Positions 29,411 to 36,089 of a stretch of DNA of 37,070 bases are shown piece by piece. A program made the position numbers and the translations under genes. How positions within the stretch are numbered: position 1 is the first letter of the stretch; every line of letters starts with the position of its first letter. This DNA is from Halodesulfovibrio sp. (GTDB taxonomy: Bacteria > Desulfobacterota > Desulfovibrionia > Desulfovibrionales > Desulfovibrionaceae). The notes below the pieces were generated by a model. The model saw nothing but the letters and a program-made list of their open reading frames with translations, ran no database searches and was not told the DNA's origin. The DNA is taken from NCBI GenBank assembly GCA_003252375.1, contig QKEJ01000072.1, forward strand, positions 1 through 37,070, given 5' to 3'.

Positions 29411-30139
29411 TTACCGTTTCCTTCGGGAGGCCATGTAGGCGGCGATGCCCATCAGGCCGAAGATGTAGCCTATGCCTCCCATGACATCCTGAATGTTGGG
29501 GGAGTGCTGTCCGAGTTCAACAAGCTGCTTGCGGATGGGAGCCAGCTTTCGTTCCAGCGCGGCGTCCATGGCGCGTTCCAGACTCTTCTCCAGCATCTGC
29601 CCGTCGGGAGATGAACCCTGCCGAGCGTGGGCTGCCGGGGCGGTGTCTTCCATGAAGGGGGGCATGTCGTCCGAGGTGCTTTCCGTGGCGGACATGCCGG
29701 CTGGAGAAGGACTGACGCCCTCAGTGTCGGCACCTGCGTAATCCGCCGCAGTCACGGTCCACGTGTTGGCATGGCCCTCGCCCGCATTGAGCGTGAGAAG
29801 GATGTCCGGGTGGCTCGCAAGGGTCGCCTCGTCCAGGGTAAAGCTCCAGATGCCCTCGTTGCTCGTCTCGCCCTCGGCAATGACGGCTCCCGTGTCCGTG
29901 CGCGTGGCGACCACATGGCTCATGCGCGCCTTGTTGCCGCTGTTGAACGTCGCTTCGGTGTGTATGACCGCCCCTTCCGACCATGCGAAGAGATTGACCC
30001 GGTGTGCATGGGCAGCGGGAACAAATGCGGCCAGCAGCATGCAGAGGCACAGTGTGACGCGGGCGGTTCGAAGCAGACATGACAGGGGAGACGTGTGTGG
30101 TGATGACGGCAGGCGAAGCGATTGGCGGGAGCTGCTCAT
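29411..30139 (-). CDS. NikL/CbiL-like nickel/cobalt uptake accessory protein
   Basis: A 242-aa membrane-anchored periplasmic protein. GGAGG 5 nt before ATG 30139 fixes the start. The signal peptide ends in AAHA, followed by HRVNLFAWSEG, a beta-sandwich domain with GAVIAEGETSNEGIWSF and LNAGEGHANTW. Then comes a linker, a charged helix (LEKSLERAMDAALERKLAPIR, about 180-200) and a C-terminal anchor (GGIGYIFGLMGIAAYM-ASRRKR). This order and the HRVN...LNAGEGH pattern match NikL/CbiL-type components encoded with energy-coupling-factor nickel or cobalt transporters. No cbiM, cbiN, cbiQ or cbiO gene is in this window, so it is an orphan here. The metal and function are inferred. Confidence 0.7.
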   Translation of the reverse strand: MSSSRQSLRLPSSPHTSPLSCLLRTARVTLCLCMLLAAFVPAAHAHRVNLFAWSEGAVIHTEATFNSGNKARMSHVVATRTDTGAVIAEGETSNEGIWSFTLDEATLASHPDILLTLNAGEGHANTWTVTAADYAGADTEGVSPSPAGMSATESTSDDMPPFMEDTAPAAHARQGSSPDGQMLEKSLERAMDAALERKLAPIRKQLVELGQHSPNIQDVMGGIGYIFGLMGIAAYMASRRKR

Positions 30140-30156
30140 GGAATCCTCCAAAATAT

Positions 30157-30197
30157 GTGTTACGTGTGAAAATATACCAATTCGTGCTACGTTGCAA
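30157..30197 (-). promoter_or_regulatory. candidate promoter of the NikL-like gene with NikR-like half-site
   Basis: Minus-strand TTGCAA (30192-30197) and TATTTT (30169-30174) with a 17-bp spacer form a plausible promoter. GTGTTAC at 30157-30163 equals, as I recall it, the half-site reported for Desulfovibrio NikR. A near copy, GTGCTACGT (30184-30192), repeats GTGTTACGT in direct rather than inverted orientation 27 bp away, so it is not the canonical NikR dyad. Confidence 0.35.
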
Positions 30198-30252
30198 GGG
30201 TGGTGCAGGTGTTTCATGACATATCCGGCGTGGTGGAAAGTGGATTGAGGAC

Positions 30253-30281
30253 TTTACAAGGGCGTCCCGGTTGCGTACTGT
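30253..30281 (+). promoter_or_regulatory. candidate promoter of the thi operon
   Basis: TTTACA (30253-30258, 5 of 6) and TACTGT (30276-30281, 3 of 6) with a 17-bp spacer. The start of transcription would be near 30288, just before the first riboswitch, which supports it despite the poor -10. Confidence 0.5.
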
Positions 30282-30291
30282 TTACCCGAAC

Positions 30292-30379
30292 AGCTAGGGG
30301 AGCCCGCAGATACGGGCTGAGAGTGGGCACGGCCCAGACCCTTTGAACCTGAGACGGTTGACACCGGCGGAGGGAAGCT
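30292..30379 (+). promoter_or_regulatory. TPP riboswitch (THI element), copy 1
   Basis: The conserved THI-box pieces are in order: GGGGAGCCC, GGGCTGAGAGTGG (pyrimidine-binding arm with CTGAGA), a variable P3 arm (GGGCACGGCCC), ACCCTTTGAACCTGA and CCGGCGGAGGGAAGCT. The P1 stem can form from the two AGCT ends. It should bind thiamine pyrophosphate and promote the terminator that follows. Confidence 0.93.
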
Positions 30380-30398
30380 ACAGCAATCATGCTGCTGC

Positions 30399-30427
30399 AA
30401 CGCTCGCCTCAGGGGAGCGTTTTTTTT
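30399..30427 (+). terminator. terminator of TPP riboswitch 1
   Basis: Stem AACGCTC / GAGCGTT with an inner CC/GG pairing and a run of eight T. It lies 20 bp after riboswitch 1 and before riboswitch 2, so it is the expression platform of the first switch. Confidence 0.88.
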
Positions 30428-30463
30428 GTGCCGGGCGCATTGTGCGTTTCGGCCGAGAAGTCA

Positions 30464-30553
30464 AGCTGGGGGAGCCCGCAGATACGGGCTGAGAGTGGAT
30501 AGGAGATCCAGACCCCTTGAACCTGAAGCGGTTCGAACCGCCGGAGGGAAGCT
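30464..30553 (+). promoter_or_regulatory. TPP riboswitch (THI element), copy 2
   Basis: A second complete THI element. Its first 30 bases from GGGGAGCCC to GAGAGTGG are identical to copy 1. The P3 arm differs (GGATAGGAGATCC). The later part reads ACCCCTTGAACCTGA and then GGTTCGAACCGCCGGAGGGAAGC in two blocks. The junction CCGCCGGAGGG departs from CCGGCGGAGGG in copy 1, so ligand affinity may differ. Confidence 0.9.
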
Positions 30554-30576
30554 GGCCGCTGGGTGCGGCGACTGTG

Positions 30577-30602
30577 GCTTGCCCTGTGGCAGGCTTTTTT
30601 TT
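30577..30602 (+). terminator. terminator of TPP riboswitch 2
   Basis: Stem GCTTGCC / GGCAGGC (one G-T pair) with a CTGT loop and eight T, 23 bp before the thiS start. It is the expression platform of the second switch. Confidence 0.9.
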
Positions 30603-30625
30603 GGGCATGCGACAGGAGTGAGCCA

Positions 30626-30826
30626 GTGATAATTCGTGTGAACGGAGAAGAATGCGAATGCGCCGAAGGCGTCTCGCTGCTCAGTTTTTTGGAGGGCAGG
30701 GAGCTGGATGTGCGTTCCGTGGTTGTGGAGCATAACCGAACCATTGTCATGACCGACAATCTTGGGAGTGTCCGGCTTGTCGCCGGGGATGAACTCGAAA
30801 TCCTGCATTTCGTAGGAGGGGGCTAA
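30626..30826 (+). CDS. thiS: sulfur carrier protein ThiS
   Basis: A 66-aa ubiquitin-like sulfur carrier that ends in the required Gly-Gly (HFVGGG). It receives sulfur as a C-terminal thiocarboxylate and passes it to ThiG for the thiazole ring of thiamine. The start is GTG 30626 with AGGAG 7 nt upstream; the open frame continues upstream into the riboswitch terminator, which cannot be coding. Its stop shares one base with the ATG of thiG. It is the first gene of thiSGHFE. Confidence 0.93.
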
Positions 30827-31614
30827 TGGAACACAGCAACAACAACGATCCTCTGGTAATCGGTGGAACCGAGCTGCAAAGCCGGCTGTTCACCGGTACC
30901 GGAAAATACGGCTCTGATGCGGTCATCCCTGATGTCTGCCGCGCCTCGGGATCACAGGTCATAACAGTGGCCCTGCGAAGGGTGGATATGCACGCCGCCA
31001 CGGGGAATGTGATGCAGCACATTCCCAAACACATGCAGCTCCTGCCCAACACCTCCGGTGCGCGCGATGCCGATGAGGCGATTCGTATCGCCCGGCTGGC
31101 TCGCGCCGCCGGATGTGGCAACTGGATCAAGATCGAGGTGATCTCGGACAACCGGTATCTCCTGCCTGACGGCTATGAGACCGCAAGGGCCACCGAGGTT
31201 TTGGCCAGGGAAGGGTTTGTGGTGCTGCCGTACATGAATCCCGATCTGTATGTGGCGCGTGATCTTGTCAATGCAGGGGCTTCTGCCGTCATGCCGTTGG
31301 GCGCGCCTATCGGTACCAACCGGGGCATCCGTACCAAGGAGATGATCGGCATCCTCATCGAGGAGATCGACCTGCCCATCGTGGTGGACGCCGGTATCGG
31401 CAAGCCCTCCGAGGCCTGCGAGGCCATGGAGATGGGGGCTGACGCCTGCCTCGTGAACACGGCCATCGCCACGGCGGGGGACCCGGTCGCCATGGGCGAG
31501 GCCTTCGGGGCTGCTGTGCGTGCGGGACGACAGGCCTTTCTGGCCAAGGCCGGCCCGGTGCTGAGCGGAAGCGCATCAGCCTCTTCCCCGCTGACCGGTT
31601 TTCTGGGAGCGTAA
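30826..31614 (+). CDS. thiG: thiazole synthase ThiG
   Basis: A 262-aa beta-barrel enzyme that joins deoxyxylulose 5-phosphate, dehydroglycine and ThiS-bound sulfur into the thiazole phosphate. The Schiff-base lysine is Lys102 in NWIKIEV. Phosphate-binding and glycine-rich segments [13 protein letters not shown] and [12 protein letters not shown] are intact. ATG 30826 overlaps the thiS stop (TAATG) and uses GGAGGGGG at the end of thiS as ribosome site, so the two are coupled. thiH follows 5 bp later. Confidence 0.97.
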
Positions 31615-31619
31615 CCATC

Positions 31620-32744
31620 ATGGCATTTGCTGAAGTATTGAACCGGTTCGCCGACATGGACATCGTCGGCGTCATGGAACGGGTGACGGATACGGATGTG
31701 CGTCGTGCGCTTGCAAACCGCGTCCCCTCCGTGGAGGACTATCTGGCCCTGCTGTCCCCTGCGGCGGCGGGCCTGCTGGAACCCATGGCCCAACAGGCGC
31801 AGCAGCTTACCCTGCAGCACTTCGGCAGGACCATTCATCTTTTTACTCCGCTGTATCTTTCCAATTACTGCACCAACCAGTGCGTCTACTGCGGGTTCAA
31901 TACCTGTAACGGCATCCGGCGGGCCAAGCTGGATGACGCGCAGATCCGTCGTGAAGGCGAGGCCATTGCCGCCACGGGACTGAAGAATCTGCTTTTGCTC
32001 ACCGGTGAGGCGCCCAAGAAGGCTTCGGTGGAATACATCGGTAATGCCGCACGGCTGCTGCGTGATCTCTTTCCCTCCATCGGGGTGGAAATCTTCGCCC
32101 TCACCGAGGAGGAGTACGCGCATCTCGTGGCGTGCGGCGTGGACAGCTTCACGCTCTTCCAGGAGACGTACAACCCTGCTCTCTATGCTGACCTGCATCC
32201 CGGCGGTCCCAAGCGTGATTTCGCCTTTCGGCTTGATGCGCCGGAACGGGCATGCAAGGCTGGCATGCGTGTGGTGAATATTGGCGCACTGCTTGGTCTG
32301 GATGAGTGGCGGCGGGATGCCTTCTTTACCGGACTGCACATCGCCTACCTGCAGCGTACCTATCCCCAGACGGATTTTGCCATTTCCATTCCCCGCATGC
32401 GTCCGCATGCCGGTGCCTTCCAGCCCACCAGCGTTGTTTCGGACCGGGAGCTTGTCCAGATCATGCTTGCGCAGCGCATCTTTCTGCCCCGCTGCGGCCT
32501 TACGCTCTCCACCCGGGAGCCGGCGGAGTTGCGCGACCACCTCATTCCCCTCGGGGTGACGCGTATGTCTGCAGGTGTGTGCACCGCCGTTGGCGGTCAT
32601 GCGGATGCGGATGAGACGGAGGGGCAGTTTGAGATCTCCGATCCGCGCAGCGTGGACGAAATGTGCGCGGTGATCCGCAGCAAGGGGTACCAGCCCGTAT
32701 TCAAGGACTGGGAACCGCTTGAAGGCGCTGCCGGGGCCGTGTAG
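31620..32744 (+). CDS. thiH: 2-iminoacetate (dehydroglycine) synthase ThiH
   Basis: A 374-aa radical-SAM enzyme that cleaves tyrosine to dehydroglycine and p-cresol for thiazole formation, the route used by anaerobes in place of glycine oxidase ThiO. The iron-sulfur cluster cysteines are C84, C88 and C91 (CTNQCVYC). LTGEAPKKASVEYI and the C-terminal thiamine-associated region with GVCTAVGGHADADETEGQFE in parts are typical. It is 5 bp after thiG, with start ATG 31620. It needs strictly low oxygen, which fits an anaerobic host. Confidence 0.96.
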   Translation: MAFAEVLNRFADMDIVGVMERVTDTDVRRALANRVPSVEDYLALLSPAAAGLLEPMAQQAQQLTLQHFGRTIHLFTPLYLSNYCTNQCVYCGFNTCNGIRRAKLDDAQIRREGEAIAATGLKNLLLLTGEAPKKASVEYIGNAARLLRDLFPSIGVEIFALTEEEYAHLVACGVDSFTLFQETYNPALYADLHPGGPKRDFAFRLDAPERACKAGMRVVNIGALLGLDEWRRDAFFTGLHIAYLQRTYPQTDFAISIPRMRPHAGAFQPTSVVSDRELVQIMLAQRIFLPRCGLTLSTREPAELRDHLIPLGVTRMSAGVCTAVGGHADADETEGQFEISDPRSVDEMCAVIRSKGYQPVFKDWEPLEGAAGAV

Positions 32745-32772
32745 GGCTTGGATTTAGATGGAGGACGCAGGC

Positions 32773-33414
32773 ATGCAGCAGGATGACGCAGAAAACGGGA
32801 ACAGCTTTTTCCGCAAGGGATTGCTGCGCTACCTGAGTGAAGTGCAGCTTGCCCGGCTGGAGTCCGTGACCGTGGGAATTGCCGGCGCCGGGGGGCTGGG
32901 GTCCAATTGCGCCATGCTGCTCGCCCGTTCCGGTGTCTGCCGGTTCGTGCTTGCCGACCATGACAGCGTTGACGATTCCAATCTCAATCGTCAGTTCTTC
33001 TTTGCGGACCAGGTGGGCCGGGTCAAGGTGGCTGCCCTGCGGGACAACCTGCTGGCCATCAATCCGGCTGTGGAGGTCTCCATGCACCGTCTGGAACTGG
33101 ATGAGACCAATGTGCTGGCCGTGTTTGCCGAATGCCCGGTGGTGGTTGAGGCGCTGGATGGCGTGGAGGGCAAGAAGATGTTGGCCGAGACCTTTCTTGG
33201 GCGCAAGGCCTTCTTTGTTTCCGCATCCGGCATGGCCGGATGGGGCGGCCCCGACATGGGAACACGGCGCATCCGTGACATAGCGGCCATGGTGGGGGAT
33301 TTTTCGAGTGACATCAGCAGAATGCCGCCCATGGCGCCTCGGGTGATGATGGCTGCGGCCTTGCAGGCGGATGCCGTGCTGGCCCATGTTCTCGGGCCCT
33401 GTATCCCCGAATAG
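32773..33414 (+). CDS. thiF: short ThiF, ThiS adenylyltransferase
   Basis: A 213-aa E1-like enzyme that adenylates the C-terminus of ThiS. The start ATG 32773 (MQQDDAENG) is chosen because GGAGG lies 8 nt upstream; an in-frame ATG at 32758 has none. The nucleotide loop is GIAGAGGLGSNCAMLLARSG, followed by DDSNLNRQFFF with the catalytic arginine. The protein is shorter than E. coli ThiF (251 aa) and has no pair of CxxC zinc motifs, in line with the anaerobe-type ThiF that goes with thiSGH. Confidence 0.92.
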   Translation: MQQDDAENGNSFFRKGLLRYLSEVQLARLESVTVGIAGAGGLGSNCAMLLARSGVCRFVLADHDSVDDSNLNRQFFFADQVGRVKVAALRDNLLAINPAVEVSMHRLELDETNVLAVFAECPVVVEALDGVEGKKMLAETFLGRKAFFVSASGMAGWGGPDMGTRRIRDIAAMVGDFSSDISRMPPMAPRVMMAAALQADAVLAHVLGPCIPE

Positions 33415-33434
33415 CTTTCAGAAAGGAGAGATTG

Positions 33435-34070
33435 ATGCAGGCTGTGCTCAATACGGATATCTACGCCCTGACAGATGAGGGGCTCTCTGCCGGGCGCTCC
33501 ACCATTGCCGTGGCCGAGGCCATGCTCATGGCGGGCATCAAGGTGCTGCAGTACCGGGAGAAGGACAAGAAGGCCGGCGCCATGCTTGCCGAATGCATCG
33601 AGCTGCGACGCATGACTCGCGATGCTGGATGTACCTTCATTGTCAACGATCACGTGGATATTGCCATGCTCGTGGATGCGGATGGTGTTCATGTGGGACA
33701 GGAAGATCTTCCCGTGGAGGATGTCCGCCGCCTGGTCGGGCCGGACAAGATAATCGGACTCTCCACACACTCGCCTGAACAGTGCCGCGACGCCATCGTC
33801 CGGGGGGCGGACTATATTGGTGTCGGCCCCATCTTCGCCACCAGGACCAAGAAGGATGTCTGCGCTCCTGTGGGATACGAGTATCTGGAGTATGTGGTGA
33901 AGAATCATGATATCCCTCACGTGGCCATCGGGGGCATCAAGCTGCATAATGTGGCTGATGTGGTGCGGCACGGCGCCCGGTGTTGCGCCCTGGTCTCCGA
34001 GATCGTGGGGGCGGATGATATCGGGGCCATGGTGCATCGTCTGCGCCGGACCATGGCAGAAACCCGATAG
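33435..34070 (+). CDS. thiE: thiamine-phosphate synthase ThiE
   Basis: A 211-aa TIM-barrel enzyme joining the thiazole phosphate and the pyrimidine (HMP) pyrophosphate. Visible motifs are QYREKDK, NDHVDIAMLVDADGVHVGQED in parts, GLSTHS and DYIGVGPIFATRTKKD in parts. AAAGGAG 6 nt before ATG 33435 sets the start. It is the last gene of thiSGHFE and ends 25 bp before a strong terminator. thiC and thiD, needed for the pyrimidine half, are not in the window. Confidence 0.95.
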   Translation: MQAVLNTDIYALTDEGLSAGRSTIAVAEAMLMAGIKVLQYREKDKKAGAMLAECIELRRMTRDAGCTFIVNDHVDIAMLVDADGVHVGQEDLPVEDVRRLVGPDKIIGLSTHSPEQCRDAIVRGADYIGVGPIFATRTKKDVCAPVGYEYLEYVVKNHDIPHVAIGGIKLHNVADVVRHGARCCALVSEIVGADDIGAMVHRLRRTMAETR

Positions 34071-34296: not shown

Positions 34297-35181
34297 ATGC
34301 AATCCGCACAACAGATGCTGGATTGCGGTATGTATATGAAGGTTTTCACTCCTGTTCTGCGTTTCTGCACGTCTCTGCTTGAAAAATCTGCAAGACTCGC
34401 CTCTGTGTGTCTGGTCATTCTTATGGTTCTGGGGATGTCCCGTGCTCCTGCGTGGGCAGCACCGGAGCAGCCGGCTTCGGATGGCCCGTTGCTGCCGCCT
34501 ATCCGGGTAGGGTTCAGCTCCTTTCCTCCGTGGCGGTTTGAAACGCCTGATGGCGAGCAGGGGATAGAGACGGAGTTCCTGCAGGAGCTTGCCAGACGGA
34601 TGCAGGTGCGGCTCGTGTTCGTGCATGCTCCCTTTGTGCGCAACCTGTGCCAGATGGAAAGCGGCGAGCTCGATCTGATGATCGGTGTGCAGAGGCGTCC
34701 CGAGCGTGAGCGCTATCTCCTGTACGTTGAGCCTGCCTATTCCGACACCATCCGTATCGGGTTCTTTACCCTCCGGGAAAAGGCGTACAGCCTGCGACAG
34801 TATGAGGATTTGCGGGACATGGTCATCGGCGTTTCCAACGGCGTGGCCTATGCTCCGCAGTTTGATGCCGATACGTCCCTGACGAAGTATGCCGTGCGGA
34901 GCGTGCACCAGAATGTGGACAAGCTGCTCAAGGGACGAATCGACGTCTTCATCAATGAGGAATCGACGGCTCGGTACATTCTGCAGAAACGACATCTTGA
35001 ATCGCGAATCACCATGGCGCCGTTCTGTTTCGAAAAGGACATCCGTCCCCATGTGGTGGTATCGAAGCGTTCGCCTCTGGCAGGCCGATTCGAGGAGTTG
35101 TCGGGGCACGTGGGAGATATGGTCCGGGAAGGCTTCATCAAGGAGCGATATCGCGCCTTTTTTTCGCATGATGGGATATAG
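34297..35181 (+). CDS. secreted solute-binding-like protein (first of a tandem pair)
   Basis: A protein of up to 294 aa in the SBP_bac_3 family. Start is uncertain among ATG 34297, 34330 and 34336; the last (MKVFTPVLRF) gives the cleanest signal peptide, ending AWA-AP, but none has a good ribosome site. Domain landmarks are VGFSSFPPWRFE, GIETEFLQELARRM, RRPERERYLLYVEPAY and NVDKLLKGRIDVFI. It shares these with the next gene, pointing to a duplication. No permease or ATPase gene is nearby, so it may serve a transporter elsewhere or act as a ligand sensor. A possible -10 TATTAT is at 34267. A terminator-like hairpin sits inside its last codons. Confidence 0.82.
   Translation: MQSAQQMLDCGMYMKVFTPVLRFCTSLLEKSARLASVCLVILMVLGMSRAPAWAAPEQPASDGPLLPPIRVGFSSFPPWRFETPDGEQGIETEFLQELARRMQVRLVFVHAPFVRNLCQMESGELDLMIGVQRRPERERYLLYVEPAYSDTIRIGFFTLREKAYSLRQYEDLRDMVIGVSNGVAYAPQFDADTSLTKYAVRSVHQNVDKLLKGRIDVFINEESTARYILQKRHLESRITMAPFCFEKDIRPHVVVSKRSPLAGRFEELSGHVGDMVREGFIKERYRAFFSHDGI
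35142..35164 (+). terminator. terminator-like hairpin inside the end of a coding region
   Basis: GG-A-GCG / CGC-G-CC around ATAT (35142-35157), followed by seven T, overlapping the last codons of the first solute-binding-like gene. The stem has one mismatch and is short, so it may be a weak terminator between the tandem paralogues. Confidence 0.4.
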
Positions 35182-35288: not shown

Positions 35289-36089
35289 ATGAGGAAGGTG
35301 GTCGGAGGCGTCTTGCCTGCGCTGGTGTGCATGCTTTTGTGTACGTTGGCACTTGCGAGCCCGTGGCAGTGCCGGGCGGAAAGTATTGTGGTGGCCTACT
35401 CGGACTCCGCACCGTGGCGCATGACCCTGGTGAATGGGCGCAAGGTCGGCATTGACGTGGAGTTCTTCGAGGAACTCGCGTCCCGGCTGGGCTGCAGTGT
35501 TGTCTATGAACGGCTGCCCTTTGAGCGGGGCCTCAGCTACATGGCCAAGGGCCGGGTTGATGTCATGGTTGGCCTGCTGCGCAGGCCGGACCGGGAACGC
35601 TACATGTACTTTGTCGATCCGCCGTACAAGGACAAGACCACCAAGGCGTTCTATGTCCGTCAGGGGCACTCCCATACCATTTCCTCACAGGCAGACCTGG
35701 CCGGAAAGAAGATAGGGGTCATTAATGGTGCCTGCTATCATCCCGACTTTGATACGGATACGCGCATTATCAAGGAGGGCGTGCTCTCCTTTGAACAGAA
35801 TATTCGCAAGCTTCTGCGGGGCAGGCTTGATGCGGTCATCATGACGGAGAGTGCTGGCGACTGGATGTTGCGTTCCCTCTCCAGCGCTCGTGATGTCACC
35901 AAGAGTCAATTCAAGTATGAGGACGGGCAAAACGTCTATATAGCCATTTCCCGCCAATCTCCGTTCTTTGCCCGTCGGCACGAGGTTTCGACCGTTCTGG
36001 GGCAGATGGTGAAGCAGCGGGTACATGCGCAGATCTATGCCAAATACATGGCGGCTCCGCAGGGGGCCACCTGCGAAGCGAACCGCTGA
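35289..36089 (+). CDS. secreted solute-binding-like protein (second of a tandem pair)
   Basis: A 266-aa protein of the SBP_bac_3 family. GGAGAGG before ATG 35289 sets the start. A signal peptide ends near CRAE. Landmarks are VVAYSDSAPWRMT, GIDVEFFEELASRLGC, GLLRRPDRERYMYFVDPPY and NIRKLLRGRLDAVIM, closely parallel to the preceding protein. No lipobox is seen, so it is probably soluble in the periplasm. The C-terminus (GATCEANR) is extended by a few residues. It lies 107 bp after its paralogue and ends in a perfect palindrome terminator. Function unknown; no transport partner in the window. Confidence 0.85.
   Translation: MRKVVGGVLPALVCMLLCTLALASPWQCRAESIVVAYSDSAPWRMTLVNGRKVGIDVEFFEELASRLGCSVVYERLPFERGLSYMAKGRVDVMVGLLRRPDRERYMYFVDPPYKDKTTKAFYVRQGHSHTISSQADLAGKKIGVINGACYHPDFDTDTRIIKEGVLSFEQNIRKLLRGRLDAVIMTESAGDWMLRSLSSARDVTKSQFKYEDGQNVYIAISRQSPFFARRHEVSTVLGQMVKQRVHAQIYAKYMAAPQGATCEANR

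Follow-up and report, generated by a model that had tools for sequence, protein, structure and literature searches.

Two complete predicted TPP riboswitches, each with an intrinsic terminator of its own, stand in tandem before the thiSGHFE operon of a Halodesulfovibrio sp., and we consider it very probable that a single transcript runs through both, each acting independently as an OFF switch, one after the other. They lie in the window, by which we mean the whole stretch of DNA that was analysed, 37,070 nucleotides in length. An Rfam covariance-model search returns two full-length matches to RF00059 (TPP riboswitch) on the + strand, both covering model positions 1-105 of 105: copy 1 at 30286..30392 (69.1 bits, E 9.8e-12) and copy 2 at 30458..30566 (67.1 bits, E 3.1e-11), with 172 bases from start to start. 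The cut-off for calling both aptamers was the RF00059 gathering score of 54.3 bits, by which both copies are complete predicted TPP riboswitch aptamers; this is the check that the first-pass annotation had proposed, and its central claim, that two complete riboswitch-terminator modules precede thiSGHFE, is borne out by these scores together with the hairpins and U-runs described below. The tandem unit, comprising both aptamers and their terminators, spans 30286-30602. The blocks CUGAGA, GAACCUGA and the CG of J5/4 are the same in copies 1 and 2 and invariant over an alignment of 30 aptamers, in agreement with the claim that both THI elements have all conserved blocks; they correspond to the ligand-binding blocks of the thiM structures. 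A permissive Rfam scan of 30100-30900 (E <= 1) gave no further RNA family, our copy of Rfam being one that may lack the thiS-motif family, and no additional TPP match was found at E <= 0.001 elsewhere in the window's genome, the assembly of which is 86.5% complete.

The downstream genes, which had been named as thiSGHFE from the sequence, are confirmed in that order on the + strand by family profiles. thiS (sulfur carrier protein, 30626..30826; TIGR01683, 56.9 bits, and PF02597) has a GTG start at 30626 after an AGGAG site, and is followed by thiG (thiazole synthase, 30826..31614; PF05690, 342 bits), thiH (2-iminoacetate synthase, 31620..32744; TIGR02351, 515.2 bits), thiF (ThiS adenylyltransferase, 32758..33414; NF006395, 238 bits) and thiE (thiamine phosphate synthase, 33432..34070; TIGR00693, 214.7 bits), for which the start codon (TTG) is unsure. 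Two SBP_bac_3 solute-binding proteins are encoded after the operon on the same strand (34297-35178 and 35289-36086). The divergent neighbour on the other side (29411-30217, - strand) matches NCBIfam NF058648, a NikL-family nickel/cobalt ECF transporter subunit; an exact NikR-type operator pattern was sought across the window and none was found.

Each aptamer is followed on the + strand by a predicted intrinsic terminator, and the observation that both THI elements have their own hairpin and eight T stands. Terminator 1 (30399..30427) consists of a hairpin at 30399-30421, with a folding energy of -13.0 kcal/mol that none of 200 shuffles equalled, and a T-run at 30420-30427; terminator 2 (30576..30602) consists of a hairpin at 30576-30595 (-11.7 kcal/mol, a stability reached by 10 of 200 shuffles) and a T-run at 30595-30602. 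Both hairpins are G+C-rich and both are upstream of the thiS start. A simple terminator scan of 30150-30700 lists hairpin 2 as its sole match; hairpin 1 is absent, probably because a G/G mismatch near the loop causes it to fail the scan's loop limit. Among the 15 tandem genomes described below, a hairpin with a U-run follows copy 1 in every case and copy 2 in 13, and both terminators are kept in 10/10 members of the genus. The second intrinsic terminator is therefore not universal, since copy 2 of G046 and G073 (loci L123 and L125) has GCTTGCC in its hairpin without a U-run, and its output there may be something other than intrinsic termination. The ThiG sequences of these two genomes group with Nitratidesulfovibrio.

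Just upstream of copy 1 there is a candidate promoter on the + strand, TTTACA - 17 bases - TACTGT (30253..30281). The TTTACA hexamer recurs within two bases of the same spot before copy 1 in 15/15 tandem genomes, and in all of them a hexamer starting with TA lies 17 bases after it; in G006 both the site and its match count were read by eye, the script having ranked other sites of that genome higher. The -10 hexamer of the window is weak, matching at 3/6 bases, and a consensus promoter scan does not list the TTTACA-17-TACTGT site. We considered a separate promoter between the copies and rejected it: by a 12-base match count, which excluded the aptamer sequence itself, no site between the copies scores as high as the upstream TTTACA site in 14/15 genomes, and in G006 the best of them ties with it. 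The TTTACA site is best described as a conserved pattern and a candidate promoter.

Because this site precedes copy 1, one start followed by two serial stops is the simplest reading of the arrangement. A single transcript would begin just upstream of copy 1 and cross both switches. Binding of TPP to a nascent aptamer would keep P1 closed, and the next hairpin and U-run would then stop transcription. In the absence of TPP, the aptamer's 3' side (GGGAAGC, or GGCGGAG in copy 1) could instead base-pair with the terminator's 5' arm, and RNA polymerase would read through. Transcripts that passed switch 1 would be re-tested at switch 2, so that overall read-through would approximate the product of both. 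Were the two affinities similar, the expected consequences would be deeper repression, a small gain in steepness and a threshold near half the single-switch value. We infer TPP binding, termination, antitermination and the similar affinities of both copies.

The evidence on antitermination is mixed. The motif GCTT[AGT][CT]C, which is complementary to GGGAAGC in the aptamer, occurs in the terminator 5' arm of 20/28 switches and of 3/76 other terminators, a comparison in which the motif was picked after viewing the sequences and the switches are related to one another. The 76 control terminators came from 50 sources chosen by us, namely the window and Desulfovibrio-like loci, and their arms are longer than those of the switches (mean 16.4 vs 11.9 bases); the copy-1 hairpin of G006 was trimmed by hand for both the shuffle and the control-terminator tests. 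In the window, terminator 1 is without the motif. When the arms of the window's own terminators were shuffled, the folded antiterminator share was reached by 5/60 (copy 1) and 16/60 (copy 2) of the shuffles, which is not significant, and the energies of the bare antiterminator duplexes are unremarkable, 104/300 and 169/300 shuffles being as strong. For each window copy, 14/76 control terminators pair as strongly. Across 30 switches, just nine had 3/60 or fewer shuffles reaching the antiterminator share, and 12/28 were matched in pairing by at least a quarter of the control terminators. The enrichment of the motif fits antitermination and, for the window's pair, weakly suggests it; it stays a step that we infer, because the shuffle tests of that pair were not significant.

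Comparative genomics, which had been recommended at the outset as a check on conservation, places the window's arrangement within a limited set of relatives. Defining a tandem as two TPP matches whose starts lie less than 300 bases from each other, we find it in 15/149 genomes, the window's included, and a TPP match of any kind in 114/149; the filters of this search were the stricter ones, and weak second copies in genomes with a single match may escape it. For the 64 genomes with at least two matches, complete lists were used for 49, the window's genome was handled separately and 14 were taken from the general listing. All 10 members of the genus among the 149 genomes carry the tandem, and the lowest aptamer score in them, 58.4 bits, is above the family cut-off. 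The other tandem genomes are G044, G046, G072 and G073, from the same family, and G093, from another family of the same order. A second survey, which used a model built from the tandem aptamers found here, took in 80 named thiG loci; there was a match in 71 and a tandem in 10, the remainder including uninformative loci that hold little sequence upstream of thiG. These 10 comprise two Halodesulfovibrio, five Nitratidesulfovibrio or Desulfovibrio and three Pelosinus loci, and at three of them ThiG is identical to that of three of the 149 genomes. A thiG tree was built with 92 rows, of which 22 are tandem; five changes of the label are required on it (bootstrap 4-6), whereas shuffled labels require 20.1 on average, and so the trait is clustered; two of the changes are forced by well-supported branches, and more than one gain or loss may have occurred.

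The history of the pair is less simple than its appearance. The first-pass annotation had noted 30 identical bases in the 5' halves and concluded that the copies look like a duplication. The identity is confirmed: 30297..30326 in copy 1 and 30469..30498 in copy 2, both on the + strand and comprising the P2 5' strand, P3 and J3/2, are the same sequence, while the longest run common to both copies in the other 14 tandem genomes is 11 to 24 bases. The conclusion drawn from it does not follow, since outside P3 the window's copies are as diverged as the pairs of its relatives, agreeing at 61/79 columns, where the range for the other nine members of the genus is 57-62 of 77-79 (62/77 in G003, 61/77 in G005 and 61/77 in G006, the nearest sisters). 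Three positions split all copy-1 from all copy-2 aptamers in the high-GC sub-clade, to which the window, G003, G005 and G006 belong, and thirteen do so in the low-GC sub-clade of six genomes, where several are adjacent and a single shift may explain them; over all 10 genomes of the genus there are no fixed differences between the copies.

An aptamer tree, built from 92 columns and with a bootstrap that had not settled, likewise sorts the aptamers by position within both sub-clades, with strong support for the copy-1 sets (100/99 and 98/92) and weak support for the copy-2 sets (79/74 and 51/78). It does not join both copy-1 sets (two changes), and the grouping was tested within the genus, so that the ten aptamers from outside may lie inside these sets. 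We rejected a recent duplication of the whole unit on these grounds. Because copy-specific bases are common to relatives and the tree groups the aptamers by position, the comparison indicates that the two copies are old neighbours, which may or may not go back to a single duplication before the whole genus.

The identical block is then a feature of P3 in particular. The two P3 sequences agree at 13/13 columns in the window, and in the nearest sisters they differ in both length and sequence (identity of 3/20 in G003, 5/23 in G005 and 7/26 in G006). Identity of P3 is by itself no proof of homogenisation, because the P3 sequences of G008 are also identical (7/7), there in the form of a short UUCG hairpin. 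Our reading is that the window's P3 probably reflects a recent local homogenisation, most likely by gene conversion. No paper on P3 homogenisation in tandem TPP pairs came up in our literature search, which was not aimed at that subject. These observations allow a further proposal, which we think unlikely to hold, that the switches are distinct and non-interchangeable and were kept through the radiation of the genus because they operate in separate regimes (their binding kinetics might, for instance, suit different growth states or speeds of the polymerase), while local gene conversion of P3 kept their folding matched.

As the copies have long been kept apart and differ in sequence, copy 2 might be clearly the weaker binder and the operon might be turned down in two steps, and such a two-threshold gate had been suggested from a difference in the 3' junction. 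That difference, CCGGCGGAGGG in copy 1 and CCGCCGGAGGG in copy 2 (CCGC/CCGG), is real but misplaced: the base that differs (alignment column 98) forms the 3' side of P5's outermost pair, and the junction bases beside it, the CG of J5/4, are the same in both copies. In copy 1 (P5 at 30354..30367, + strand) the outer pair is a mismatch, A30354 / G30367; in copy 2 (30528..30541, + strand) it is the Watson-Crick pair G30528-C30541. Among the 30 aptamers of alignment A1, columns 85/98 hold G-C in 26, C-G in 2, U-G in 1 and A/G in 1, the lone mismatch being copy 1 of the window. Column 98 is G in 4/4 copy-1 and C in 4/4 copy-2 sequences of the high-GC sub-clade, and the base difference looks ancestral. 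P5 is therefore predicted to be better paired in copy 2 than in copy 1, and the conserved blocks are alike, which removes the argument that copy 2 has the lower affinity; since the base lies in P5 and looks ancestral, we rejected the junction as a reason for a weaker copy 2. A better-paired P5 does not establish that the affinities are equal.

The covariance-model scores, which are not affinities, are nearly equal for the window's copies (69.1 and 67.1 bits), and within the genus copy 1 has the higher score in three of the 10 members and copy 2 in the other seven (in one by 0.1 bit). In six low-GC members (L113, L114, L116, L119, L120 and L121) copy 1 shares an altered P3a/J2-4 (AGTTCTGACCCTTGAACC), and at the same six loci copy 1 scores below copy 2, the reverse of the window. 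A steeper response and a graded two-threshold response had been offered together, and in a model of two switches in series, with read-through taken as a product and the termination limits assumed, they are mutually exclusive. With equal affinities the half-point falls to 0.41-0.48 of the single-switch value and the effective Hill slope is 1.13-1.19; if the affinities differ tenfold, most or all of the steepening is lost (slope 0.99-1.10), and a hundredfold gap gives a broader response with incomplete termination (slope 0.80-0.90) or a slope of 1.02 in the ideal case. Steepening is thus confined to affinities within about tenfold, broadening sets in beyond, and a plateau would require a large gap. 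Although only the upstream switch of Bacillus anthracis tenA was seen acting in the RNA-seq examined (PMC12121620), the two-threshold idea finds no support past general possibility and we regard it as quite unlikely for the window.

Two independent switches in series therefore remain the preferred account, and it has also to be weighed against the view that a single switch matters while the other is a passive leftover of the tandem duplication. A recombination remnant is named as a possibility in PMC545781, and the homogenisation of P3 suggests that the copies still recombine; yet in 10/10 genus members both aptamers score above the family cut-off and both terminators are kept, and the binding-site blocks do not vary across the 30 aptamers, which makes a passive second copy very improbable. 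That the copies differ in ligand, one responding to TPP and the other to a precursor such as thiamine monophosphate or HMP-PP, is more doubtful still: PMC9481103 cautions that certain RNAs classed as TPP riboswitches prefer thiamin or thiamine monophosphate, and it lists pairs of the TPP/HMP-PP type that accompany HET-P genes, but copy 2 is a typical match to RF00059, its invariant blocks are those of copy 1, and the scan at E <= 1, in an Rfam copy that may lack the HMP-PP (thiS-motif) family, gave no other family.

Tandem arrangements of this kind have analogues in other bacteria. Leaders with multiple TPP or AdoCbl aptamers make up less than 1% of those classes, as given in PMC2258182, and PMC9481103 puts at 213 the TPP-class representatives that form a tandem with a second member of the class, many of which it regards as likely pseudo-cooperative; the window's pair, with two complete predicted switches and a promoter-like site upstream of both, is a candidate for that kind. 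According to PMC12452182, tandem riboswitches are marginally enriched in Thermodesulfobacteriota, and TPP-TPP leaders of thi genes are found in Bacillota. The latter precede thiamine genes as the window's pair does, and our three Pelosinus loci (L086, L089 and L093) have theirs upstream of thiG; they belong to a distant lineage, and separate origins are likely, because the thiG tree needs five changes of the tandem label.

The tenA tandem of B. anthracis, which had been cited as a precedent, consists like the window's predicted pair of two complete TPP switches in series. According to PMC12121620, which cites Welz and Breaker 2007, its switches are reported to terminate independently in vitro, and the reported in vivo data show only the upstream one acting under the conditions tested. 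It belongs to another phylum and another operon and has been tested experimentally. Nearer to hand, Oleidesulfovibrio alaskensis G20 has two TPP riboswitches before thiS (PMC11124144, whose single use of the word 'tandem' is in its reference list); its RF00059 pair is 161 bases apart from start to start, compared with 172 in the window.

The closest precedent, however, is in Desulfovibrio, where two tandem THI-elements, each with a terminator, were described before thiSGHFE and proposed as a termination pair (Rodionov et al. 2004, PMC545781). The tandem before thiSGHFE is real and conserved, and has been in print for this lineage since 2004; the window presents the same arrangement in another species, with a P3 identical in both copies. 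The 2004 account raised the question of whether the tandem of Desulfovibrio is being maintained or persists as a remnant. Maintenance is favoured by the window's genus, where the promoter-like site, the two aptamers and their terminators are all retained in 10/10 genomes. Natural switch pairs of known divergence, such as these, offer material for measuring the benefit of a second switch for the same ligand.
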